Below are positions 1 to 12,940 of a stretch of 64,000 nt of DNA, one piece after another. Position 1 is the stretch's first letter. Each line of letters opens with the position of its first letter. The stretch is from positions 124,001-188,000 of the forward strand of contig JAODME010000005.1 of assembly GCA_025465095.1 (NCBI GenBank), in the 5' to 3' direction. The translations under genes and the position numbers were made by a program. The notes beneath the pieces are model-generated. The model was not told the DNA's origin. It did not search any database and worked only from the letters and a program-made list of their open reading frames with translations. The DNA is from Microbacteriaceae bacterium. Its GTDB lineage: Bacteria; Actinomycetota; Actinomycetes; Actinomycetales; Microbacteriaceae.

Positions 1-962
1 CTCCGGATGCCCAACTGGATCCAGCGAGGAAAAGACGCGACTCCGTTGCCCAGGGTGAGGTTGCTCCACGGGTTGTGGACCATGCTCGCTCCGGCATCCG
101 CGATCAGCCGCAGCTCGTCCTCGCTGCACCAGACTCCGTGCGCTGCTGACAGCCGTTCTGTCAGCAGGCCGTGATCGCCGAGCCGCGACACTAGGCCTCT
201 CTCGCCCGCCAGCGGGGAGCTGCATTGGGCTCGCGATTCGAGGAGGTGCGTGTGCACTATCGTGTCAAATTCCTCTGCCGCTCGAGCGCTCCACGCGAGC
301 AGTTCGTCACTGCACCGCTGCGGGCCAGACGGACCGAGGGCGATCTTCACCCTCGAGTCTCGGCCATGCCAGGAGCGCACGAGAGTGTGCTGCAACTCGG
401 CGAGGGTTGCCAAGTCCGGTGTTTCCCTAGCGTCCAAGCGCTTCAAAAGCATCGGCTCGAATGACGGCACGGGCGTGACCGTGCGGTGGGCGGGCATATC
501 GGCCACCATCGGGGCTAGCGTGACGCGGATGCCGAGCTCGACGTACGCCTGAAGGGCCCCCTCTATCGACTCGAGTGTGCCGCCGAGGTGGTCGAGTACG
601 GTGGTGGTGCCCGTGCGGAGAGCCGCGATACCGCCGATCATCGCGCTCACATAGCCTTCCTCGAAGTTGCGTCCAGCGGTGATGGCCGACGAGAAGGGCA
701 CCCAGGCCTCGAGCGTGAGCCCGTCAAACATGCCGCTGCCGAGATTCCCGTAGGAATGTGTGTGCGCGTTGACGAGCCCGGGAAAGACTAGACGCCCATG
801 GGCGGTGATCAGATCGTCATCCCCCGTCGGTGCGACACTGCCCGACGCGACGATGTTGCGGATCAACCCGCCCTCGATAATCAGATCCTGGGGGGACAGG
901 CTCATTTCTCCGGCCGCGCCCGTGACCACTTGTGCACCGACTATGAGGGTCCGACGTGACAT
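1..962 (-). CDS. Amidohydrolase (cytosine/guanine deaminase-like, TRZ/ATZ superfamily), 3' end cut by window edge
   Basis: The minus strand reads open from an ATG at 962 to the window edge; the ORF track misses it because the stop lies outside. The first 320 residues begin MSRRTLIVGAQVV. They carry the metal-binding NAHTH signature of the amidohydrolase TIM barrel, then HTHLLES, AHGVWC and a VHNPWSNLTLGNG strand, all typical of chlorohydrolase/cytosine-deaminase-type enzymes that release ammonia from ring C-NH2 groups. It would act in the cytosol. The gene is divergent from the ABC-importer operon and shares its 295-bp upstream region, so it probably works on the same imported N-heterocycle or ureide. 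Family assignment is firm; the exact substrate cannot be read from sequence. Confidence 0.85.
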   Translation of the reverse strand, partial: MSRRTLIVGAQVVTGAAGEMSLSPQDLIIEGGLIRNIVASGSVAPTGDDDLITAHGRLVFPGLVNAHTHSYGNLGSGMFDGLTLEAWVPFSSAITAGRNFEEGYVSAMIGGIAALRTGTTTVLDHLGGTLESIEGALQAYVELGIRVTLAPMVADMPAHRTVTPVPSFEPMLLKRLDARETPDLATLAELQHTLVRSWHGRDSRVKIALGPSGPQRCSDELLAWSARAAEEFDTIVHTHLLESRAQCSSPLAGERGLVSRLGDHGLLTERLSAAHGVWCSEDELRLIADAGASMVHNPWSNLTLGNGVASFPRWIQLGIR

Positions 963-1257
963 CCGCACTCCTTCGACGCTCGCCAGTATGTCCGATTATT
1001 TCATGTCACGGAAACCGATTCGCTGAAAGCGAGTGAGACCCGGGCCCGGCTCGCGGGCGGGGTGACGCGATGAACCAGGCCGACAGCCGTTCTACGCTCT
1101 TCCCGCGCTTCGGTGCCTCATTCGCGAACATGATCGGCGCCTTCCGTGGAAACGCAAATGTCATGAGATGGAAACATTACGGTCCTAGCCTTAGTCGAGT
1201 CGCCCGCATCCTGCGACAGACCGAGATGCAAGCGACAGAGAGAGAAGGGCTTGAGTA
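963..1257. other. Divergent intergenic region between amidohydrolase and ABC operon
   Basis: These 295 bases must contain the promoters of the divergent amidohydrolase and the 10-gene plus-strand operon. I see no strong operator; only weak inverted repeats occur, such as AATGT...ACATT near 1152-1176. A purine-rich AGAGAGAAGGG stretch just before 1258 serves as ribosome binding site for the ATPase gene. A 62-codon plus-strand ORF at 1070-1258 has no recognisable features and is not called. Confidence 0.5.
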
Positions 1258-2121
1258 GTGAGAGAGAATCTCAGCAAGAAGGCCAGTGCTGCCGGCCAGG
1301 GTGAAAACCCCGATGGAGTCGACGCGGTGGCCATCTCCGCGCGCAACATCGTCAAGACGTACACGATCGGACGTGAGGGCAAGCCCATGCTCGTCCTTGA
1401 TGACGTTTCCCTTGACGTCCGTCGCGGCGAATTCCTCGCAATCATCGGGCCAAGTGGCTCCGGAAAGACGACCCTCCTGCGAATTATCGCCAGCCTCGAG
1501 AGTGCAGACTCCGGTCAGGTCATCGCCCAGGGGCGACCGGTAACGCAGCCGAGCGCCGAACGAGCGATGGTCTTCCAGCACTTCGGGCTCTTTCCGTGGA
1601 AGAACATCATCGACAACGTCAAGTTCCCGCTGAAGATTCGTGGGGTCAAAGACGCTGAGGCGACGGCAATTGCACGAGATCAGCTACGGCGCGTAGGACT
1701 TAAGCCGCAGTTCGAGCAGAGCCATCCCCACCAGCTATCGGGCGGCATGCAGCAGCGGGTCGGCCTCGCACGTGCGCTTGCCACCGACGCGGATGTGCTG
1801 TTGATGGACGAGCCGTTCGGCGCGTTGGACGCTCAGACTCGTGAGGTCCTGCAGGGCGACCTGGCACGAGTGTGCGCGCAGACCTCCAAGACGGTCATCC
1901 TCGTCACTCACGACATCGACGAGGCAGTACTCCTCGCCGACCGCATTCTCGTGCTGACCGCCGGCCCCGGGCGGGTGGGCGAGATTGTCGACGTCGACCT
2001 GCCTCGTCCTCGCTGGGAATACGACGTGCGCGCTCACCCGAAGTATCCGGAGGTGCGCCGTCACGTCTGGGATCTGTTGCGTTCGCACATCACCGAGGAC
2101 GGCGCAAATGACGGCGACTGA
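1258..2121 (+). CDS. ABC transporter ATP-binding protein (nitrate/sulfonate/taurine type)
   Basis: This 287-residue nucleotide-binding subunit would energise import through the two permeases downstream. Visible motifs are Walker A GPSGSGKTT (about residue 67), a Q-loop VFQHFGLFPW, the signature LSGGMQQRVGLARA (about 160), Walker B VLLMDEPFGALD and a switch histidine in LVTHDIDEA. The size and FGLFPW-type Q-loop fit the SsuB/TauB/ThiZ-like subfamily. The start is GTG at 1258, preceded by a purine-rich ribosome binding site. The 3' end overlaps the first permease gene by 14 bases, indicating translational coupling. The family is known to take up small organic anions or N-heterocycles; the actual ligand is inferred only from the neighbouring catabolic genes. 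Confidence 0.93.
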   Translation: MRENLSKKASAAGQGENPDGVDAVAISARNIVKTYTIGREGKPMLVLDDVSLDVRRGEFLAIIGPSGSGKTTLLRIIASLESADSGQVIAQGRPVTQPSAERAMVFQHFGLFPWKNIIDNVKFPLKIRGVKDAEATAIARDQLRRVGLKPQFEQSHPHQLSGGMQQRVGLARALATDADVLLMDEPFGALDAQTREVLQGDLARVCAQTSKTVILVTHDIDEAVLLADRILVLTAGPGRVGEIVDVDLPRPRWEYDVRAHPKYPEVRRHVWDLLRSHITEDGANDGD

Positions 2122-2908
2122 CACAAAACGATTGCGACGGTTCAACACGGCCCGTACTCTGCGCCAGTCGCCGATGTGGGCCAAGCACCTCACGCTCGGG
2201 CTTGGGCTCATTGCGCTGTGGGAGCTGTCCTCACTGTTTCTCGACCCGATCGTGCTCCCACCGTTCCATTCGGTTGTGGTCGCATTCTTCGTGCTCCTCT
2301 TCAACGGTTCGCTCATCGCAGCGCTCGGACAGAGCCTCCTGCTCCTGGTCCTGGGCCTCGCGGCCGCGCTGGTGACCGGGCTCGTTGTGGGGATTATCGT
2401 CGGGCGGGTTTCGATTGTGGAACGCATGGTCGTCCCATTTCTGGGCGCCCTCTACGCGATGCCAACGATCGCGCTGATTCCTCTCATGCTGGTCTGGTTC
2501 GGCTTCGGTCTCGGCGGGCGAGTAGTTGTGGTCTGGCTGGTCGCGTTCTTCCCGATGCTGGTGGCGGTGCATGCCGGAGTGAGGGACGCACCGCGTGATC
2601 TGACAGAGGTGGCGCGTTCGTTCGGCGTTCGCCGAGAGATCACCCTGCTGCGCACTGTCATCCTGCCGAGCGCGCTGCCCATGATTCTCAACGGCCTGCG
2701 ACTCTCGGTGGGACGCGGCATCGTCGGCATGGTGATTGCGGAAGTTTACTTGCGGCTCGGAGGCATTGGCGGCCTGATCTCCGAATACGGCGCCGTCTTC
2801 CGTACCGACTACGTCATTGCGGCGATCGCGTCCCTCCCCGCGCTTGGCTTGCTGCTCGCCGCGGGCGTCGAGTACCTAGAAAGGCGCGTCCGCCACTGGC
2901 GGCGGTAA
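2108..2908 (+). CDS. ABC transporter permease (SsuC/TauC-like)
   Basis: The ORF track begins this frame at 1985, but the supported start is the ATG at 2108 (MTATDTKRLRRF), inside the end of the ATPase gene. The product has about 266 residues with six hydrophobic segments and a cytoplasmic loop EVARSFGVRREITLLRTVILPSALP matching the EAA motif that docks on the ATPase. The fold is BPD_transp_1. It is the first of two permeases in the operon, which suggests a heterodimeric channel. The second permease lies after the binding-protein gene, an unusual interleaved order. Confidence 0.92.
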   Translation: MTATDTKRLRRFNTARTLRQSPMWAKHLTLGLGLIALWELSSLFLDPIVLPPFHSVVVAFFVLLFNGSLIAALGQSLLLLVLGLAAALVTGLVVGIIVGRVSIVERMVVPFLGALYAMPTIALIPLMLVWFGFGLGGRVVVVWLVAFFPMLVAVHAGVRDAPRDLTEVARSFGVRREITLLRTVILPSALPMILNGLRLSVGRGIVGMVIAEVYLRLGGIGGLISEYGAVFRTDYVIAAIASLPALGLLLAAGVEYLERRVRHWRR

Positions 2909-2976: not shown

Positions 2977-4065
2977 ATGGAGTCTCCAATGCTGCACACC
3001 AGCCCAATGCTTCGCCGTAGCGTCACGTTTATAGGAGTGGCCGGTTTGAGTCTGGCCCTTATTACGGGTTGTTCGAGCGCTGAAAATAGTGCAGAACTAG
3101 ACGACTCGAGCCAGACCGGGGAGAAGCCCTCCTTCGAACTGGACGGCGAGAACATCCGAATCACCTTCGGTGACGCGAGCGCCCAGTCGCTCGGCAACCG
3201 GTACATGATCGCCCAGCTTGAAGGATGGGGCGCGACGGTCGACGACATCGCTTTGACGACAGCTACCGGGCTGTCGGCAATAATCGCCGGCCAAGCGGAT
3301 TTCGCGGCCGGCCAGGGTGCGGACGAGGCCATTCTGGGCCTCGCGATGGGCGCCGACCTGACGGCGATCGGCGCACCCGACAGTGCTAATTCGTATGTCG
3401 TCATCGCGAGGAGCGAAATCGAGTCGATCGAGGACCTTCGAGGTGCACGGATCGCGACGTCGGGACCCGGCGGATTCAACACCGCGCTCATGTACCTTGC
3501 GCTTCAAAACGCGGGTATTGACCCCGACTCCGATGCGAGCTTGCTCTCCATCGGCGGCAGTCCGGAGCGCGCGGCCGCGCTGCTCACCGGCAACGTCGAC
3601 GCCACCGTCGTGTTTTATGCCGACTGGGCTCAGATTCAGGCGCAGTCTGACGACGTGCACCTGCTCGCGGTCATGGACGAACTCGTCCCGAATATCCCTG
3701 ACCTGTACTACTACGGGGAGACGGCGTATTGGGATGAGCACCCAGAGGTGGCCTTGGCAGTTGCCTGTGCGAACTTGAACGCGAATGCGATCATCTCCCA
3801 GGACAAAGAAGCGTTCGTCGACTTCGCGGCGTCATCGATCACCGGCTCCGATCGCGAGATCACGGATTACACGTACGATCGGCTCATCGAGCTCGACAAC
3901 TGGCCGACCGAGCCGGAGGAGATCATGAACCTGGATGGTCTTGACGCCCTTCAAGAGCTCCTTCTACAGACCGGCGACCTCGAGTCGCCCACCGACATCG
4001 GCGATCTCGTCGACCTGAGCTACCTCGAGGAGGCTCAGGAAATGGGTTGCGGTGTGAGCGACTGA
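2977..4065 (+). CDS. ABC transporter substrate-binding lipoprotein (NMT1/SsuA-like)
   Basis: This is the extracytoplasmic binding protein of the importer, 362 residues from the ATG at 2977 (an alternative ATG at 2992 is possible). The N terminus has a positively charged stretch (MLRRS), a hydrophobic core and a lipobox LITGC, with the lipidated Cys at about residue 32. The mature part has the periplasmic-binding type II fold of NMT1/THI5 and sulfonate-binding proteins: ATGLSAIIAGQADFA, then DLRGARIATSGPGG, then GNVDATVVFYADW. Relatives bind taurine, nitrate, riboflavin or pyrimidine precursors of thiamine, so a small N-containing ligand is plausible. It ends in TGATG, overlapping the second permease start by one base. 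Confidence 0.9.
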   Translation: MESPMLHTSPMLRRSVTFIGVAGLSLALITGCSSAENSAELDDSSQTGEKPSFELDGENIRITFGDASAQSLGNRYMIAQLEGWGATVDDIALTTATGLSAIIAGQADFAAGQGADEAILGLAMGADLTAIGAPDSANSYVVIARSEIESIEDLRGARIATSGPGGFNTALMYLALQNAGIDPDSDASLLSIGGSPERAAALLTGNVDATVVFYADWAQIQAQSDDVHLLAVMDELVPNIPDLYYYGETAYWDEHPEVALAVACANLNANAIISQDKEAFVDFAASSITGSDREITDYTYDRLIELDNWPTEPEEIMNLDGLDALQELLLQTGDLESPTDIGDLVDLSYLEEAQEMGCGVSD

Positions 4066-4937
4066 TGCAGACTCCTCCAAGCCAAGCGGCCAGTCTGCGC
4101 CCAGACGCTGTCACAGCGGAAGCAGCATTGGTGCCTTCGCCGGTAGCGGGGCGGCCACCGGGTTCGGTGCTGCGAGCATCGTGGTGGCAACTTGCGCTTC
4201 GGCGGTGGTGGCCCCCGGCCGTCTTCGGGCTCGCCGCGCTCATCCTGTGGGAGCTCATCAGTCAGTCGATCAACCCGCTTCTCTTCGCCGCACCTAGTCG
4301 CACCGTAGAGGCGTTCGGCGAGCTCATTCTGAGTGGTGAACTGCTCGATGCGCTGATCGTGACGTTGTCTTATCTGGTTCCCGGGCTCCTGATCTCCGTA
4401 GTCCTCGGTATCGCACTCGGAATCTTCATGGGGCGCTCGGTGACCTGGGGCACGCTTCTGCAGCCCTATCTCGACGCCATCTACGCTCTGCCAAGGGTGG
4501 CGATCATCCCGCTCGTCATCCTTTGGTTCGGCGTGGGCTACGAGGCACGAATCTTCATCATTGTGCTTGGTTCAGTGGTCCCCATCGCTATGAGCACGTC
4601 CGCTGGTGTCAGATACACGAGCGTGAAGCTACTGGAGGCCGCGCGAAGCTTCCAGGCCACCGAGTTGCAGATAATCCGGCATGTCGTCATCCCCTCCTCG
4701 ATTCCGTTCATCATTTCGGGACTTCGGATTGGTACTGAACGTGCCCTTGTCGGCGCGGTCATCGCCGAAGTGTTCCTGTCGCTCACAGGTCTGGGCGGCA
4801 TCATCCAGACCGAGGCAGAGCGTTTCAACGCCCCCTACGTGATTGCCGCCGCGCTGGTGTACGCACTACTCGGTGGGCTTTCCATGACGGCGCTCGGCGC
4901 GATCGAACGACGCATTGCGGCCTGGAAAGCCGCTTGA
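4065..4937 (+). CDS. Second ABC transporter permease (SsuC/TauC-like)
   Basis: The ORF track starts this frame at a TTG (4047), but the ATG at 4065 overlapping the lipoprotein stop is the better choice, giving about 290 residues. A roughly 50-residue cytoplasmic N-terminal tail precedes six membrane segments. The EAA-like loop is LLEAARSFQATELQIIRHVVIPSS. It resembles the first permease in overall plan but differs in sequence, fitting a heterodimeric membrane domain rather than a recent duplication. Its stop overlaps the upstream frame of the next gene, so the operon continues without a break. Confidence 0.91.
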   Translation: MQTPPSQAASLRPDAVTAEAALVPSPVAGRPPGSVLRASWWQLALRRWWPPAVFGLAALILWELISQSINPLLFAAPSRTVEAFGELILSGELLDALIVTLSYLVPGLLISVVLGIALGIFMGRSVTWGTLLQPYLDAIYALPRVAIIPLVILWFGVGYEARIFIIVLGSVVPIAMSTSAGVRYTSVKLLEAARSFQATELQIIRHVVIPSSIPFIISGLRIGTERALVGAVIAEVFLSLTGLGGIIQTEAERFNAPYVIAAALVYALLGGLSMTALGAIERRIAAWKAA

Positions 4938-4966
4938 CCGACCACCAATCAAGAAAAGGACCAATT

Positions 4967-5986
4967 GTGGAGCAGAGACCATTTACCTATGTCTCGAATC
5001 AGGATGTCCGTGCGATTCTCACCCCGGCGGACGCGGTTCGCATCGCACGGGACACCCTCGTCGAGCACGCTCGCGGTCAGGTGGATTGGGGTGACCCTCG
5101 GCAGGCGAACGTGAAGGTGAGGCAGTCACCGACGCACTACAAAATGAAGGGGTGCGTGTTGCACGGCATCGGCGTCGCGGGATTCCGCGTCGTGGGCCTG
5201 CGGCGTACCGATGAGGGCTACGCGGTCGCGGCGCACCGTCCGACCAAGAGCGTCCTCCTAAGCGATCCCTTGACTGGTGCGTTTTTTGGAATAGTGGACG
5301 AGCGCTGGGCCTACGGACTGCGCACCGGGGCGTGCGCCGCCGTAGCGATTGAGGCACTCATGGTGCCCGATGCCACCGACCTGACCATCATCGGTACCGG
5401 ACACATGGCTTACGCGACCGTGCAGACGGTGAATGAGATCATGCCGCTAGAGCGCATCCGGGTGTTCTCCCGGAGTCAAGATCGGCGCGAGGCATTTGCC
5501 GCCCGCCTGGCCCAGGATCTAGGCATCACAGTAGAGGTGATGGATTCCGTCGAGGCGGCTGTACGCGATGCCGCCGTGATCGTCACAGCGACGGAGGCTG
5601 CCCAGCCGATCATCCATCACGAATGGCTTCGACCGGGCGCAGTCGTCTACGCGATGGGCACCAACCAGGAGTGTGACACCGCGAGCTACGATCGAATGCG
5701 CTTCATCGCGGACGAGCGGCAGCAGATCGAAGTTTGTTTTGAAATCAAACGGTGGATCGAAGAAGGTACCTACGACCCATCAATGATCGAGGGCGACCTC
5801 GCCGAGGTCATCACCGGCAAGATCCGACGGGAGTCCGCGGATGACCAGTTTCTCGTGCGCAGCCAGGGCCTGGTCACACAGGACGTTGCCCAGGCCTACT
5901 GGATCTACCAGCAAGCCGTCGAACGCGGTCTCGGGGTCGACCTCGAGGCGTCGCTCGTCGATGACTTCGGCGCGGATCTGTTCTAG
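4967..5986 (+). CDS. Ornithine cyclodeaminase / mu-crystallin family NAD(P)-dependent enzyme
   Basis: The track start (TTG, 4934) is unlikely. GTG at 4967 lies six bases after an AAAAGGA ribosome binding site and gives MEQRPFTYVSNQDV, about 339 residues. The Rossmann fingerprint is IIGTGHMAYATVQ at about residue 130. The N-terminal substrate domain holds a conserved-looking KMKG strand and RRTDEGYAV, and the C-terminal part has YAMGTNQECD. Members deaminate or reduce amino or imino acids (ornithine cyclodeaminase, alanine dehydrogenase, ketimine reductase). In this operon it could process an amino acid or imine product released by ring opening. The specific reaction is not readable. Confidence 0.85.
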   Translation: MEQRPFTYVSNQDVRAILTPADAVRIARDTLVEHARGQVDWGDPRQANVKVRQSPTHYKMKGCVLHGIGVAGFRVVGLRRTDEGYAVAAHRPTKSVLLSDPLTGAFFGIVDERWAYGLRTGACAAVAIEALMVPDATDLTIIGTGHMAYATVQTVNEIMPLERIRVFSRSQDRREAFAARLAQDLGITVEVMDSVEAAVRDAAVIVTATEAAQPIIHHEWLRPGAVVYAMGTNQECDTASYDRMRFIADERQQIEVCFEIKRWIEEGTYDPSMIEGDLAEVITGKIRRESADDQFLVRSQGLVTQDVAQAYWIYQQAVERGLGVDLEASLVDDFGADLF

Positions 5987-5988
5987 TG

Positions 5989-6420
5989 ATGTCGTCATTT
6001 CTGGGAGAGGACAGACCCATTTCCAAAGTGAAGATCACGACGCTCGACGACGGCGTGATGATCCCAATGAACGACGAGAAGGGGATCTCCCGCTCGCTCG
6101 TCGGAGCGGCGGACGGAGCCAGGCTCGTTGATGTCCACGTCAACGTGATCAAAGCTTCCGTGCCGCCCGCGCCCTATCACGTCCACGATGTCGCTGAGAA
6201 CGTGTACATCATTCTCGAGGGTACCGCTCACGCGATTGTCGATGGGGTGCACTACATGTTGAAGCCGCGCGACGTCGTATTCATCCCGCCCGGCGTCCCG
6301 CACGCCGCTGGGAGCACGCCGGACGGACCAGTGACACTGATCGAGATCTACGCGCCTGTCGGGAAGGACTACCGACGCGTCCCGGCCTCGACTCCCATCG
6401 GAGCACCCGACGGTGAGTGA
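5989..6420 (+). CDS. Small single-domain cupin protein
   Basis: This is a protein of about 143 residues with one cupin barrel. Motif 1 reads YHVHDVAENVYIILEG (HxH...E...G metal site) and motif 2 reads IPPGVPHAAG. ATG 5989 follows the upstream TAG directly; GTG 5986 overlaps it and is an alternative start. Small cupins are metal-dependent enzymes or sensor-like proteins. Some bicupins of ureide pathways are aminohydrolases, but this one has only one barrel and lacks the length of (S)-ureidoglycine aminohydrolase. Its place between the deaminase-like and phosphoribosyltransferase-like genes suggests a step in the same pathway. Confidence 0.8.
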   Translation: MSSFLGEDRPISKVKITTLDDGVMIPMNDEKGISRSLVGAADGARLVDVHVNVIKASVPPAPYHVHDVAENVYIILEGTAHAIVDGVHYMLKPRDVVFIPPGVPHAAGSTPDGPVTLIEIYAPVGKDYRRVPASTPIGAPDGE

Positions 6421-6488: not shown

Positions 6489-7103
6489 ATGGACGATCTG
6501 CTCACTGCCCTGCTCGGCCGCAACGGCGACGTGTTCCAGGACCGACTCCAGCGCAAAGCGGAACTGGCCCGCGACATCATCGCTTCGTCGTACCTGACGG
6601 GCGAGTTCACCATGTCAGACGGTCTCAGCTCGACCTACATCTTTCATCCTTCCCTGTTCATGACGAAACCGACGGTCCTCAGGCGCCTCGTAAGCGTGCT
6701 GGCCGCCCTCGTCCCTCAGCGCATCGACCGTTTAGCCGGCTCGGAGCCCGGTTCTCTGCCCATCGCGACGGGGTTGGCTCTCGAGACGGGAATACCGTTC
6801 ATCGCGCTGCGGGAGGTTCCTGAAGCGGCTCCCCTGAGCTTCGCGGCACTGGGGGAGGTGCACGCGGGTGAGCGGGTGGTCGTCGTCGAAGACGTGGTGA
6901 AGTCTGGATCTCGTGCGCTGGCTGCAGCCCGCGCGATCGAGCGCTCCGGCGCGATCGTGGACCGAGTCCTTTGCGTGATCGATCGGGAGGAGGGCGGCTC
7001 GGCGCTGCTATCGGAGGCAGGTCTCCTGCTCGAACCCCTTTTCACCGCTCGTGAGCTGTTAGTCACACCGGGCCGGGCTCCGGGGTCAAGGGGAGGGCGA
7101 TGA
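6489..7103 (+). CDS. Orotate phosphoribosyltransferase-like protein with altered catalytic loop
   Basis: This 204-residue protein has the type I phosphoribosyltransferase fold. The N-terminal hood region reads GEFTMSDGLSSTYIFHPSLF, as in PyrE (tGeFtLkSG...Y). The PRPP-loop strand is VVVVEDVVKSGS at about residue 134. Two oddities stand out. The flexible catalytic loop, which in OPRTs carries the KxxKxHG lysines and histidine, reads LREVPEAAPLSF and has none of them; and the loop after the ED pair is KSGS rather than TTGG. It may bind a nucleotide, PRPP or an orotate-like ligand without normal catalysis, perhaps as a sensor. Overlap of four bases with the M20 gene (GATGA region) ties it to the catabolic operon. 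Confidence 0.78.
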   Translation: MDDLLTALLGRNGDVFQDRLQRKAELARDIIASSYLTGEFTMSDGLSSTYIFHPSLFMTKPTVLRRLVSVLAALVPQRIDRLAGSEPGSLPIATGLALETGIPFIALREVPEAAPLSFAALGEVHAGERVVVVEDVVKSGSRALAAARAIERSGAIVDRVLCVIDREEGGSALLSEAGLLLEPLFTARELLVTPGRAPGSRGGR

Positions 7104-8410
7104 CCAGGGGAAAGCTCGACGCGCCCGTAGTGCTTGGTTCAGCGCGTGCCGAGCACATCGAGTCGATGATAGGGCAACTCGCGGAGCTCAGCGAAGGTGG
7201 TCCCGGTGTAACCCGCCTCGCCTACTCGCCCCTCGAACGCCGTGCCCACGCGCTCTTCGCCCAATGGATGAGCGATCTCGGCTGCTCCGTCACTACAGAC
7301 GCTGCCGGCAACACAATCGCGGAGCGGCCGGGAGCAGTGCCGGGAAGACCGGCCATCGGGGTTGGCAGTCACCTCGACTCTGTCTACTCGGGCGGGCGCT
7401 TCGATGGAATCGCGGGCGTTGTCGCGGGCGTTGAACTAGTACGCCTGTTGGCGGAAGCGGGTATGACCCTGGAGCATCCACTTCGCATTGTCGCCTTCGC
7501 GGGCGAGGAAGGCGCCCGCTTCGGGCAGGCCTGCGTCGGATCCAAACTTGCCGCGGGGCTCACCGCCCGGCACGTCCTTGACGAGCTGACAGACCGCAGC
7601 GGAACCAGTCTTTCTGCGGCGATGCGCGAGATCGGCCTCGACCCGGACTCCGCCGCCGCACAAGGGTGGGATGCCGACGACTGGGCAGTCTTCCTCGAAC
7701 TGCACATCGAGCAGGGCAAAGTGCTTGAGAACTCCGGCGCGGCGGTCGGACCCGTCGACCTAATCTCCGGATCCACCCGGCTTTCATTCGTCATGACCGG
7801 ACGGCCGTCGCATACGGGTGGCACCCCCATGCTCAATCGGTCCGACGCGCTCGCGGCGGCGGCCGAGGCGGTTCTCATCGCCGAAACGCTCGCTTCCGAC
7901 GACACTCACCGCGGTACGCGGGCGACGGTAGGGCGACTTTCTGTCGAACCCAATTCGATCACCACAATTCCCGGACGCGTGACATTCAGTCTCGATGTGC
8001 GTGACATCGACGCAGATCGGCAACGCCGCGCTGTCACCGAGATAGTTGGCCGAGTCATGGCGACGTGTCGACGCCGGAAGGTCACGCTTGAGGTGAATCT
8101 CATCGCCGACACGTCGCCGGTCGTGATGCCGCTGTGGGTTCGCCAGGCGCTGGTCGCAGGCGCCAAGGAACTCGATGTGCCCTATCGGGTACTCGGTTCG
8201 GGCGCGAGCCATGACGCTCAGATGATCAATACGTTTGTGCCGACGGCGTTGTTGTTCGTGCCTAGCCGTGACGGGCTTTCGCACGTGCCGGACGAGTGGA
8301 CAGAGTTCGCGCAGGTGGCTACGGGAGTCGACGTTCTCGCGCGCGCGGTGATCGGCTTGGACAAATCTATGACGGCGTCGGAGCGCGTCGCGTCAAAGGA
8401 GGAACTGTGA
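7100..8410 (+). CDS. M20-family Zn amidohydrolase (N-carbamoyl-L-amino-acid hydrolase / ureidosuccinase / allantoate amidohydrolase type)
   Basis: This 436-residue cytosolic metallohydrolase of the hydantoinase/carbamoylase (HyuC/AllC) branch has its metal ligands in order: GSHLDSV, GRFDGIAG, GEEGARFG, LELHIEQG and LSHVPDEW, with the dimerisation domain between about residues 210 and 325. The family hydrolyses N-carbamoyl amino acids or allantoate to an amino acid plus CO2 and ammonia. Next to a dihydroorotase, the simplest role is hydrolysis of N-carbamoyl-L-aspartate to aspartate, but beta-ureido acids or allantoate are possible. It overlaps both neighbours (GATGA upstream, GTGA downstream), so stoichiometric coupled translation is likely. 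Confidence 0.88.
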   Translation: MTRGKLDAPVVLGSARAEHIESMIGQLAELSEGGPGVTRLAYSPLERRAHALFAQWMSDLGCSVTTDAAGNTIAERPGAVPGRPAIGVGSHLDSVYSGGRFDGIAGVVAGVELVRLLAEAGMTLEHPLRIVAFAGEEGARFGQACVGSKLAAGLTARHVLDELTDRSGTSLSAAMREIGLDPDSAAAQGWDADDWAVFLELHIEQGKVLENSGAAVGPVDLISGSTRLSFVMTGRPSHTGGTPMLNRSDALAAAAEAVLIAETLASDDTHRGTRATVGRLSVEPNSITTIPGRVTFSLDVRDIDADRQRRAVTEIVGRVMATCRRRKVTLEVNLIADTSPVVMPLWVRQALVAGAKELDVPYRVLGSGASHDAQMINTFVPTALLFVPSRDGLSHVPDEWTEFAQVATGVDVLARAVIGLDKSMTASERVASKEEL

Positions 8411-9702
8411 CCGCGCTGACCATCAGGGGGGGAACCCTGCCAGGAGGCTCCCGCCGGGACCTGTTTGTCGAGAGGGGAGTCTTCGTCGAGTCAGAGGTTC
8501 ACGGTGCGACGGTCATCGATGCCGACGGGCTCGCGATACTGCCCGGCCTCGTCGATTTGCATACACATCTCCGTGAACCAGGATCCGAGCAGTCGGAGAC
8601 AGTGCTGTCCGGGAGTCGTGCGGCAGCCGCCGGGGGATTCACCGCGGTTTTCGCCATGGCAAACACCAGTCCGGTCGCCGACACTGCTCGTCTGGTCGAA
8701 CAGATTCAGTTGCTGGGAGTAGCGGCCGGATATGTCACGGTGCGTCCGATTGGTGCAGTAACCGTCGGTCTCAAGGGTGAGAGACTCGCTGACCTGAGGG
8801 CGATGGCGCGAAGTTCCGCCGCGGTACGCGTTTTCAGCGACGACGGAGCCTGTGTTTCTGATCCGCTCCTGATGCGTCTCGCTCTCGAGGAGGTTTCAGC
8901 ATTCGGCGGCGTCATCGCTCAGCACGCCCAAGAGCCGCGACTCACCGAGGGGGCGCAGATGAACGAAGGAAGCGCCTCCGCCAAGCTCGGCCTGACGGGG
9001 TGGCCGGCCGTGGCGGAGGAGGCCATCATTGCCCGGGACGTGCTGCTCGCGGAGCACGTCGGCGCGCGAGTCCATATCTGTCATCTGTCCACCGCGGGGA
9101 GCGTCGACGTGGTGCGCTGGGCGAAGGCACGGGGAATCCGAGTCACGGCAGAGGTGACGCCGCATCATCTGCTCCTCACCGACAATCTGGTCGCCACGTT
9201 GGACCCGCGCTACAAAGTGAATCCTCCGTTGCGTACCGGGGAGGATGTCGCGGCACTGCGTGCGGCGGTCGCCGACGGCACGATCGATATTGTTGCAACC
9301 GACCACGCGCCGCATCCTGTGGAGGCGAAGGAGGTCGAGTGGAGCGTTGCCGCCAACGGCATGGTAGGGCTCGAGTCGGCACTGTCGGTCGTGCAGGCTA
9401 GTCTGGTCGACACGGGGATGCTCGACTGGCAGGACGTGGCGCGGATTCTCTCCTCCGCGCCCGCCCTTATAGGCGGTCTCCCCGGCTACGACGCGCCGTT
9501 CGTGCCAGGAACGCCCGCCAACCTTGTCGTGCACGATCCGTCTGCGAGCAGGGAATTCGATACGACCGATCTGCATGGCCGGAGCGTCAACTCGCCGTAC
9601 CTGGCTCGTCGACTCCCCGGCCGTGTGATAGCCACCGTGCATGAGGGGCGCCCCACCGTTCTGCAGGGCGAGCTGCTGCCTGTCGATGAGGTCGCACGGT
9701 AA
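8407..9702 (+). CDS. Dihydroorotase-type amidohydrolase (type I PyrC-like)
   Basis: The track ORF begins at 8296, but the supported start is GTG 8407, with AAAGGAGG upstream and a four-base GTGA overlap with the M20 stop; this gives 431 residues. Motifs match type I dihydroorotases: VDLHTHLREPG (metal HxH plus the Arg that holds the dihydroorotate carboxylate), MANTSPVADT (the Asn of the same site), FSDDG, HAQEPRL, HICHLST, TPHHLLLTD and TDHAPHP. Allantoinases have NEPG and dihydropyrimidinases lack the R/N pair, so cyclic amide cleavage or formation of dihydroorotate/carbamoyl-aspartate is favoured. Sitting with an importer and a carbamoylase instead of with pyr biosynthesis genes, it may run in the degradative direction. 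Confidence 0.86.
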   Translation: MTALTIRGGTLPGGSRRDLFVERGVFVESEVHGATVIDADGLAILPGLVDLHTHLREPGSEQSETVLSGSRAAAAGGFTAVFAMANTSPVADTARLVEQIQLLGVAAGYVTVRPIGAVTVGLKGERLADLRAMARSSAAVRVFSDDGACVSDPLLMRLALEEVSAFGGVIAQHAQEPRLTEGAQMNEGSASAKLGLTGWPAVAEEAIIARDVLLAEHVGARVHICHLSTAGSVDVVRWAKARGIRVTAEVTPHHLLLTDNLVATLDPRYKVNPPLRTGEDVAALRAAVADGTIDIVATDHAPHPVEAKEVEWSVAANGMVGLESALSVVQASLVDTGMLDWQDVARILSSAPALIGGLPGYDAPFVPGTPANLVVHDPSASREFDTTDLHGRSVNSPYLARRLPGRVIATVHEGRPTVLQGELLPVDEVAR

Positions 9703-9726: not shown

Positions 9727-10107
9727 ATGTCCACTGAGATCGCGCGTGTGTTGGCGGACGGGCGTGCCCGGTTGGGTGACGACCCTGGAGCGGCCGAGCG
9801 CATCGGTCGGCAGATGGCCCTATCGATTCGCCCCGCTGAAGCGAGCATCGTCCTCCATTGGGCGGGCGATGCGGACAGCGTTCTGGCCCATGTGGTGGCT
9901 CGCGAGCTGAATGTCGCGCGGGTATGCATCACCATCGACGAGGGTCTGATGTATTTCTCGAGCCCGCTCCCGGAAGCGTGTTCCGCAGCGCTCGTAGGGT
10001 TCGCCTTCACCGCCGATCGGCCGGCGACGGCGATCGGAGCCTATCTCGAGTCGCGAGGCCACCGGCTCGCGCGTACGGCCGACGTCGCTGGGCTCACTGA
10101 GTCCTGA
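9727..10107 (+). CDS. Uncharacterised small protein, possible degenerate phosphoribosyltransferase-like domain
   Basis: This is 126 residues, start ATG 9727 with GAACGAGGGA upstream, last gene of the operon. I do not recognise a named family. The pattern ASIVLHWAGDADSVLAHVVARELNVARV followed by AALVGFAFTADRPATAIGAYLESRGHRL resembles the two core strand-helix units of type I PRTases (predicted: ligand-contact strand, then PRPP loop). However, the acidic pair and TTGG of the PRPP loop are replaced by GF...TAD. If real, it is a second non-catalytic PRTase relative in one operon, possibly a partner of the 6489 gene product. It has no signal peptide or membrane segment. Confidence 0.6.
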   Translation: MSTEIARVLADGRARLGDDPGAAERIGRQMALSIRPAEASIVLHWAGDADSVLAHVVARELNVARVCITIDEGLMYFSSPLPEACSAALVGFAFTADRPATAIGAYLESRGHRLARTADVAGLTES

Positions 10108-10493: not shown

Positions 10494-10718
10494 GTGTCAA
10501 CCACGACTGAATACCTTGTCTCGGGAATGACCTGTGGCCACTGCGTCGCGAGCGTCACCGAGGAGCTATCAGAGCTGGCGGGTGTTGAATCCGTCTCCGT
10601 CGACCTGAGCGCCGGCGCAGCATCCCGCGTCACCGTGGCGAGCTCGACGGCGCTGAACACGGATGCCGTACGCGCCGCAGTCGAGGAGGCGGGCTACCGG
10701 CTCGTCCCGGCGCCGTGA
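10494..10718 (+). CDS. copZ: Copper chaperone, heavy-metal-associated (HMA) domain
   Basis: The track frame starts at 10440, but GTG 10494 with CAGGAG 10 bases upstream gives the expected 74-residue CopZ. One ferredoxin-like HMA domain is present, with metal site GMTCGHC (residues about 13-19) and the typical ending AGYRLV. It binds Cu(I) in the cytosol and passes it to the HMA domain or membrane site of the ATPase encoded next. Its TGA overlaps the CopA GTG start (GTGA), so the two are co-translated. Expression is expected to be derepressed by copper through the palindromic operator upstream. Confidence 0.92.
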
Positions 10719-12940
10719 GCACGGACGTCTACCTCGAGATCGGTGGCATGACCTGCGCCTCGTGCGCGACGCGCATCGAGCGCAAGCTCAACCGTCTTCC
10801 GGGCATCGACGCGACAGTGAACTACGCAACCGAGAAGGCGCACGTGCGAGGTGGAAGCGACACCGCCGCCCTCATCGCCGCGGTGGAGTCCGCGGGATAC
10901 ACCGCAACGCTCCCCGAGGTCGAGACGGATGGCGTGGCGGCGCGGGACCCAGGGGAGGGATTGTCCCGTCTGCGCCACCGATTCCTCGGCACAGCCGCGC
11001 TGAGCGTGCCCGTCGTCATTCTGTCCATGATCCCGGCCCTCCAATTTCCGAACTGGCAATGGCTCGCGCTGACCCTCGCGGCTCCCGTCGTCGTGTGGGG
11101 TGCCTGGCCGTTCCACCGCGCCGCGTGGGTCAACGCACGCCACCGCGCCGTCACCATGGACACCCTCATCTCCATCGGCGTCCTGGCCGCCTTCGGCTGG
11201 TCGCTCTACTCGTTGTTCTTCGGCATGGCAGGCATGCCCGGCATGACCATGAGCTTCTCGCTAGTCACCGAGCCGGGGGCGGGCGCCGACGAGATCTACC
11301 TCGAGGTCGCGACCGCCGTCACGGTGTTCATTCTTGCCGGGCGGTATGCGGAGGCGAGGGCGAAACGTGACTCCGGATCGGCCCTCCGCGCGCTGCTCGA
11401 GCTCGGAGCAAAGGATGCGACAGTGCTTCGGGACGGAGCGGAAACGCGCGTGCCCGTGGACAACCTCGTCGTCGGGGATCGCTTCGTGGTGCGCCCGGGA
11501 GAGAAGGTCGCCACCGACGGACTCGTCGTGGACGGGGCATCCGCCGTGGACATGAGCCTGCTCACCGGCGAGTCCGTCCCCCGGGAAGCGGTGGTGGGCG
11601 ACCGGGTGGTGGGCGCCACCGTCAATGTGGGGGGCCGACTCGTCGTCGAGGCTACCCGTGTCGGAGCCGAAACCGAGCTCGCCCGCATCGGCCGACTCGT
11701 CACCGAGGCGCAGACCGGCAAGGCCGAGGTGCAGCGCCTGGCCGATCGGGTCTCCGCGATCTTCGTGCCCATCGTGATCGCGCTTGCCATCCTCGCCTTC
11801 GCCGGCTGGGCGATCTTCGGCGGCTCGATGGAGATCGCATTCACCGCGGCCGTCGCCACGCTCGTGGTGGCGTGTCCGTGCGCGCTCGGCCTCGCGACAC
11901 CGACCGCGCTGCTCGTCGGCACCGGTCGAGGCTCGCAGCTCGGCATCATCATCCGAGGTCCGCAGGTTCTCGAGCAGACCCGCCGCATCGACACGATCGT
12001 GCTCGACAAGACCGGAACGGTGACGACCGGAAAGATGACGCTCGCAGAGATCGTTCCCGTCGAGGGGGAAACCCGCGCCGAGGTGTTGCGTGCTGCCGCG
12101 GCCGCCGAGCGCGGGTCGGAGCATCCGGTCGGGCTCTCAATCGTTGCGGCGGCAACAGAGGCGGGCCTGAACGTTGCGGGCGCGGAAGGGTTTGCGTCGA
12201 TGCGCGGGCAGGGGGTGAAGGCCCTCGTGGAAGGGCGCCTCGTGCTTGTCGGCAACGCGTCCTGGCTCGCGAGCGAATGGTCGATTCCGGTTCCCTCGGC
12301 GGTCAGTGCGGCCGTCGAGGAGTCGGAAAGCCGCGGGAGCACCGCCGTCGTCGTGGCTTGGGACGGAGCCGTCCGGGGCATGATCGCCGTCGGCGACACC
12401 GTAAAGGCGACCAGCGCTGACGCGGTGGCGGTGTTCCGGCGGCTCGGCCTGTCTCCCGTGCTCCTCACCGGCGACAACGCGGGAGCGGCCGCCGAAGTCG
12501 CTTCGAAGGTCGGGATCACGGATGTCCGAGCCGGGATCACGCCGAAAGGCAAGCTCGACGCGATCAGGCAGCTCCAGGCGCAAGGGCACGTCGTCGCGAT
12601 GGTGGGGGACGGGGTGAACGACGCGGCGGCGCTTGCCGCCGCCGACCTCGGCGTCGCCATGGGAGCGGGAACGGATGCCGCGATCGCTGCGGGCGACGTG
12701 ACAGTTCTGAGCGGGGACCTCGTTGTCGTCGGTGACGCGATCCGACTCGCCAGGAGCACGCTCGGCACGATCAAGGGCAATCTCTTCTGGGCGTTCGCCT
12801 ACAACGTCGCGGCCATTCCGCTCGCGATGCTCGGGCTGCTCAATCCCTTGATTGCGGGCGCGGCGATGGCGCTGTCTTCGGTCTTCGTCGTGACCAACAG
12901 CCTGAGACTGCGGCGGTTTCGCGGAACCACGCCGATTTAG
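10715..12940 (+). CDS. copA: Copper-exporting P1B-type ATPase
   Basis: This 741-residue Cu(I) efflux pump starts at GTG 10715. It has an N-terminal HMA domain with GMTCASC (residues about 10-16) and eight predicted membrane segments. The actuator motif is LLTGES, the ion-binding CPC lies in [16 protein letters not shown], the phosphorylation site is DKTGTVT, the SEHPVGLS motif carries the HP pair of P1B ATPases, and the hinge is [10 protein letters not shown]. The transmembrane segment before the actuator contains a Met-rich [10 protein letters not shown] stretch that could capture copper. No accessory copper genes follow; the operon appears to be just copZ-copA. Confidence 0.96.

Follow-up and report, generated by a model that had tools for sequence, protein, structure and literature searches.

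Results

The operon and the P2 gene

The window analyzed here is the whole 64,000-nucleotide stretch of contig JAODME010000005.1 from a Microbacteriaceae bacterium, and the genes at the locus of interest, including the two PRTase-like proteins that we call P1 and P2, are listed in Table 1. P2 starts 24 bp past the dihydroorotase stop (9702), and a purine-rich stretch precedes its ATG. The window DNA is GC-rich and chance open reading frames as long as P2 do arise, so its standing as a gene rests on homology; the 126-residue frame and coordinates given by a first-pass annotation of this DNA are correct, and eight other loci encode homologues (below).

Table 1. Genes of the P1/P2 operon and its surroundings in the window
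Feature	Coordinates	Strand	Remarks
Divergent amidohydrolase	1..968	-	Cut by window edge; relatives in G049 and G065 loci
ABC transporter ATPase, taurine/nitrate type	1258..2121	+	
Second ABC transporter permease	2177..2902	+	Coordinates are the extent of the tblastn match
NMT1/THI5-like ABC substrate-binding protein	2977..4065	+	
ABC transporter permease	4047..4937	+	
Ornithine cyclodeaminase/mu-crystallin (OCD) family protein	4934..5986	+	Relatives in G049, G065 and G358 loci
Small cupin protein	5986..6420	+	Same operon
P1	6489..7103	+	PyrE-like, TIGR00336 branch; PRPP loop EDVVKSGS; catalytic RKxxK loop lost; 4-bp overlap with next gene
M20-family N-carbamoyl-amino-acid hydrolase / allantoate-amidohydrolase-like enzyme	7100..8410	+	Homologue adjoins the pair in 9/9 loci
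Extra dihydroorotase	8404..9702	+	Exceeds NF006836 and TIGR00857 cut-offs
P2	9727..10107	+	ATG at 9727, stop ends at 10107; 126 aa; PRTase fold; TIGR01367-branch OPRT ancestry; GFAFTAD replaces PRPP loop; no curated family

Pfam, NCBIfam and PHROGs searched with P2 alone gave no meaningful match, a plasmid search gave no match, and a P2 scan of the wider genome-contig collection yielded nothing that was confirmed; a pteridine reductase match (E 0.007) was dismissed as chance. We found no curated family or paper that describes P2, and the open-licence papers searched contain no account of the P1/P2 pair or of any orotate-degradation gene cluster.

The window operon carries a dihydroorotase and an N-carbamoyl-amino-acid hydrolase (both substrates are predicted) and no dihydroorotate dehydrogenase (DHODH). 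The single DHODH of the genome lies outside the operon on contig C26, another strong dihydroorotase on contig C31 is probably the biosynthetic one, and further PRTases are also present. Next to the operon, both in the window (10715-12940) and in one of the other P2 loci, G085 (L029 1094-3364), lies a gene for a heavy-metal P-type ATPase, 61% identical between the two.

Fold and ancestry of P2

An AlphaFold2 model of P2, built from the window protein aligned with four relatives, is confident (pLDDT 87.6, pTM 0.83), and its secondary structure (H20-37 E41-45 H48-61 E64-71 E74-77 E86-91 H100-109 E113-119) contains the two strand-helix units that the first-pass annotation had read as a PRTase core. 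The modeled protein is one short domain with only one short helix ahead of the core and no DNA-binding part. When the model was searched against the PDB, all 26 matches at E<=1e-3 were type I PRTases, the top one being an OPRT (4paw), followed by PurR and other OPRTs; no unrelated fold was seen, and by the model and these matches P2 has the type I PRTase core fold, in agreement with the original proposal.

Which PRTases are its closest relatives? A profile made from the nine P2 proteins found OPRTs of other actinobacterial classes (E 5e-12 to 6e-5); those that were read mostly adjoin pyrF/pyrD-like genes, and 4/4 scanned exceed the TIGR01367 (pyrE_Therm) cut-off. In the reverse test a profile of those TIGR01367-type OPRTs recovered 9/9 P2 proteins (E 5e-9 to 0.011) and matched 0 of 2000 shuffled sequences, and no P2 was found with profiles built from six further PRTase groups, one of which was the biosynthetic OPRT of Microbacteriaceae. 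These profile searches superseded an earlier hhalign comparison of P2 with the PRTase groups, which had been borderline (best P 0.015-0.04). The tree places P1 on the PyrE side and P2, as a single clade (100/100), on the TIGR01367 side, with 98/100 support for the branch that separates them; the exact placement of P2, which sits on a long branch, is weakly supported (71/69). P2 thus descends from an OPRT, specifically from the TIGR01367 branch. Measured against the curated OPRT cut-offs, the window P2 matches no OPRT model and falls far short of the family cut-off, and TIGR01367 is matched by one of the nine P2 proteins (E 0.058). P1 matches TIGR00336, with a score below its cut-off, and since it groups on the PyrE side while P2 groups with TIGR01367, P1 and P2 appear to be derived from separate OPRT lineages.

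Loss of catalytic motifs

As first noted from the letters of the DNA, GFAFTAD stands at the PRPP-loop position of the window P2, where it aligns with VEDVITTG of the OPRTs. The other eight P2 proteins read GVAASSA, ASTFTSE, ATTFDTR, SAVWNDD, ATRWSES, APQFSAE, ATSWTRY and ASSFDDR there, so that none of the nine has the PRPP motif ([DE]DxxTTG or TAG), neither its acidic pair nor its TTG. The catalytic Lys/Arg loop, the N-terminal orotate-side SSG..S..Y segment and the C-terminal CPLC/PGSR region of OPRT are also missing from P2, and loss of the N-terminal segment makes orotate binding by P2 alone doubtful. Judged from these sequence features P2 is a trimmed, non-catalytic protein; W45, G73 and L74 are invariant in it.

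The model of P1 is poor (pLDDT 56.6) and was unfit for a fold search, so P1 is described here from its motifs. Seven of the nine P1 proteins lack both the PRPP motif and the N-terminal segment. The other two are the window P1, in which the loop is degraded to EDVVKSGS, and the OPRT-like P1 of G170, which retains EDVLTTGAQ and a RREAKNYATG loop and is the only P1 with a full PRPP motif. The suggestion that both proteins look non-catalytic therefore stands for the window pair, both members of which have lost the PRPP loop, and does not extend to the G170 P1. G170 (L032 / L046) is the sole locus at which a P1 with OPRT-like PRPP and catalytic loops is paired with a degenerate P2, and it may represent an intermediate step on the way from enzyme to pseudoenzyme.

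These features bear on whether P1 and P2 together are a working enzyme, one that performs OPRT-type salvage in G170 and elsewhere an altered reaction with orotate, orotidine or a nucleotide as substrate. The intact loops of the G170 P1, the invariant P2 residues and a uridine-phosphorylase-like gene that flanks three loci would fit such an enzyme, but a full PRPP motif is found in no P2 and one P1, the N-terminal segment is gone from seven P1 proteins, and within one genus P1 and P2 have diverged to 53-57% identity while the hydrolase remains at 78%. We consider an enzymatic role unlikely.

Co-occurrence and selection

Nine P2 loci are known, the window included. The eight others are G049 (Homoserinimonas MAG RYN_87), G085, G529, G074 (Microbacteriaceae MAG FW021_bin.57), G065 (Compostimonas suwonensis), G358 (Jiangella asiatica), G170 and L091 (MAG RYN_102); the window genome and most of these loci belong to one family, and G170 and G358 to other families of the class. 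P1 and P2 occur together in 9/9 loci, which bears out the expectation that the pair would be conserved across genomes. A survey of 149 relatives of the window genome found P1 of the operon type in G000, G049, G065, G074 and G085, the same five that have P2; the P2 search of these relatives, run with one sequence, had lower sensitivity than the P1 profile, and G065 was secured only by profile. A P1-profile scan of the genome-contig collection gave five loci, with P2 at the same locus in 5/5.

In three genomes P1-related OPRT paralogues are present outside such operons, with no P2 nearby (L102 6290-6850; L103 6286-6819; L104 6278-7225). Three P1-profile matches of this kind, in G033, G062 and G093, were rejected as operon-type P1; the two that were scanned are above the TIGR00336 cut-off and have an intact PRPP loop.

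For the closest pair of loci, G085 and G529, NG86 dN/dS is about 0.37 for P2, 0.31 for P1 and 0.15 for the hydrolase, values that are rough since dS is near 1. P1 and P2 are constrained but fast-evolving, which argues against a dead gene. Motif loss, truncation and fast divergence are what functionless, decaying remnants of captured OPRT genes would display, but decay is a very improbable explanation given that the frames are intact in nine divergent loci, that the linkage is constant and genes overlap, that dN/dS is well below 1 and that the P2 fold is confident.

Gene neighborhoods

P1 and P2 are adjacent in 7/9 loci, in the gene order P1-P2-hydrolase, and overlap by 4-8 bp in six. The window and G049 have P2 farther along the locus, and there a 4-bp overlap joins P1 to the hydrolase gene. 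The M20 hydrolase beside the pair is the most constant neighbor (9/9). A second dihydroorotase is present in 7/9 loci and was not found in L091 or on the short G170 contig.

Four loci (G085, G529, G074 and L091) contain a class-1B DHODH with PyrK, and three of these PyrD-type loci have the flanking uridine-phosphorylase-like gene. Their gene content suggests orotate breakdown, from orotate through dihydroorotate and N-carbamoyl-aspartate to aspartate. This direction is known from Clostridium oroticum. PyrD/PyrK are missing from the operon in three loci and in the window, and orotate may therefore not be the substrate at every locus. G065 and G358 have UbiD and UbiX instead of DHODH/PyrK, and an arylmalonate-decarboxylase/EutA-like protein, an SDR and an OCD-family protein are encoded in G065, G358 and G049. 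Loci in which such UbiD, UbiX, arylmalonate-decarboxylase/EutA-like, SDR and OCD genes accompany the pair are L093 12386-20491 and L092 9904-16612, and their gene sets suggest a pathway for a heteroaromatic acid in which dihydroorotase and N-carbamoyl-amino-acid hydrolase would act last.

In G170 and the PyrD-type loci the gene immediately ahead of P1 encodes an IclR regulator, which raises the question of whether P1 and P2 might be a PurR-like transcriptional or transport sensor that binds orotate or a nucleotide and exerts its effect via this regulator or via the ABC transporter. IclR proteins normally have their own ligand domain, which counts against this, as do the single short P2 domain with no DNA-binding part, the finding that the hydrolase (9/9) is the most constant neighbor, and the window operon, in which an IclR gene was not found close to P1. 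In favor of a sensor of this type, the best P2 fold matches include PurR structures, and the haloarchaeal regulator GfcR, encoded by pyrE1, controls sugar catabolism (PMC11519228). On balance we regard it as rather improbable.

Discussion

A possible role for the P1/P2 pair

P2 and P1 are probably a paired helper or sensor rather than an enzyme. From the linkage, and from the precedents of PurR, GfcR and the PRPP synthetase-associated proteins, we infer a complex, a ligand and a target as follows: P1 and P2 would be a mostly non-catalytic, OPRT-derived hetero-pair whose task is to bind a ligand of the pathway and to tune the operon's enzymes or scaffold them, a reading to which we give an even chance. 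P2 would be the constant partner of P1 in a hetero-oligomer built like the OPRT dimer, with a pocket retained for orotate or a later intermediate and PRPP no longer usable. The pair may regulate or hold together the co-translated hydrolase and dihydroorotase, and ring opening would thereby be matched to hydrolysis to aspartate. More tentatively, and with some doubt, two OPRT lineages may have been separately recruited and stripped of catalysis to give a constant pair of proteins that acts in pyrimidine-ring degradation as an orotate sensor or an assembly factor; if true, this would be a sensor or assembly role for the PRTase fold that is absent from the open-licence papers found.

The fold of a biosynthetic enzyme would then have been reused as a pair, apparently without catalysis, in a pathway that seemingly runs pyrimidine synthesis partly backwards, and the set of P1, P2, hydrolase and dihydroorotase genes could serve as a marker for aerobic breakdown of orotate or related heterocycles.

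Comparison with known systems

OPRTs of the TIGR01367 branch share with P2 the core fold and a specific profile relationship, but they have the PRPP loop, the N-terminal segment and the C-terminal region, and P2 has none of the three. The Bacillus subtilis pur operon repressor PurR is a PRTase fold in a regulatory role; it is about 270-290 aa long, however, has an extra DNA-binding domain and holds cPRPP or ppGpp in solved structures, whereas P2 has 126 aa, no PRPP motif and no DNA-binding domain fused to its PRTase domain of the kind present in PurR and GfcR. GfcR, an activator of sugar degradation (PMC11519228), resembles the pair in being a pyrE-annotated protein that acts in catabolic regulation, and differs in being a single transcriptional activator, where the pair consists of two short proteins in a dihydroorotase operon. 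The PRPP synthetase-associated proteins PRPSAP1/2 are non-enzymatic complex partners of the active mammalian PRPP synthetase (PMC11476008). Their partner is an active enzyme, whereas both P1 and P2 look inactive in most genomes; the likeness is that PRPSAP1/2 are non-enzymatic relatives of a PRPP-linked enzyme and that P2, too, is found with a related partner, at every one of its nine loci.
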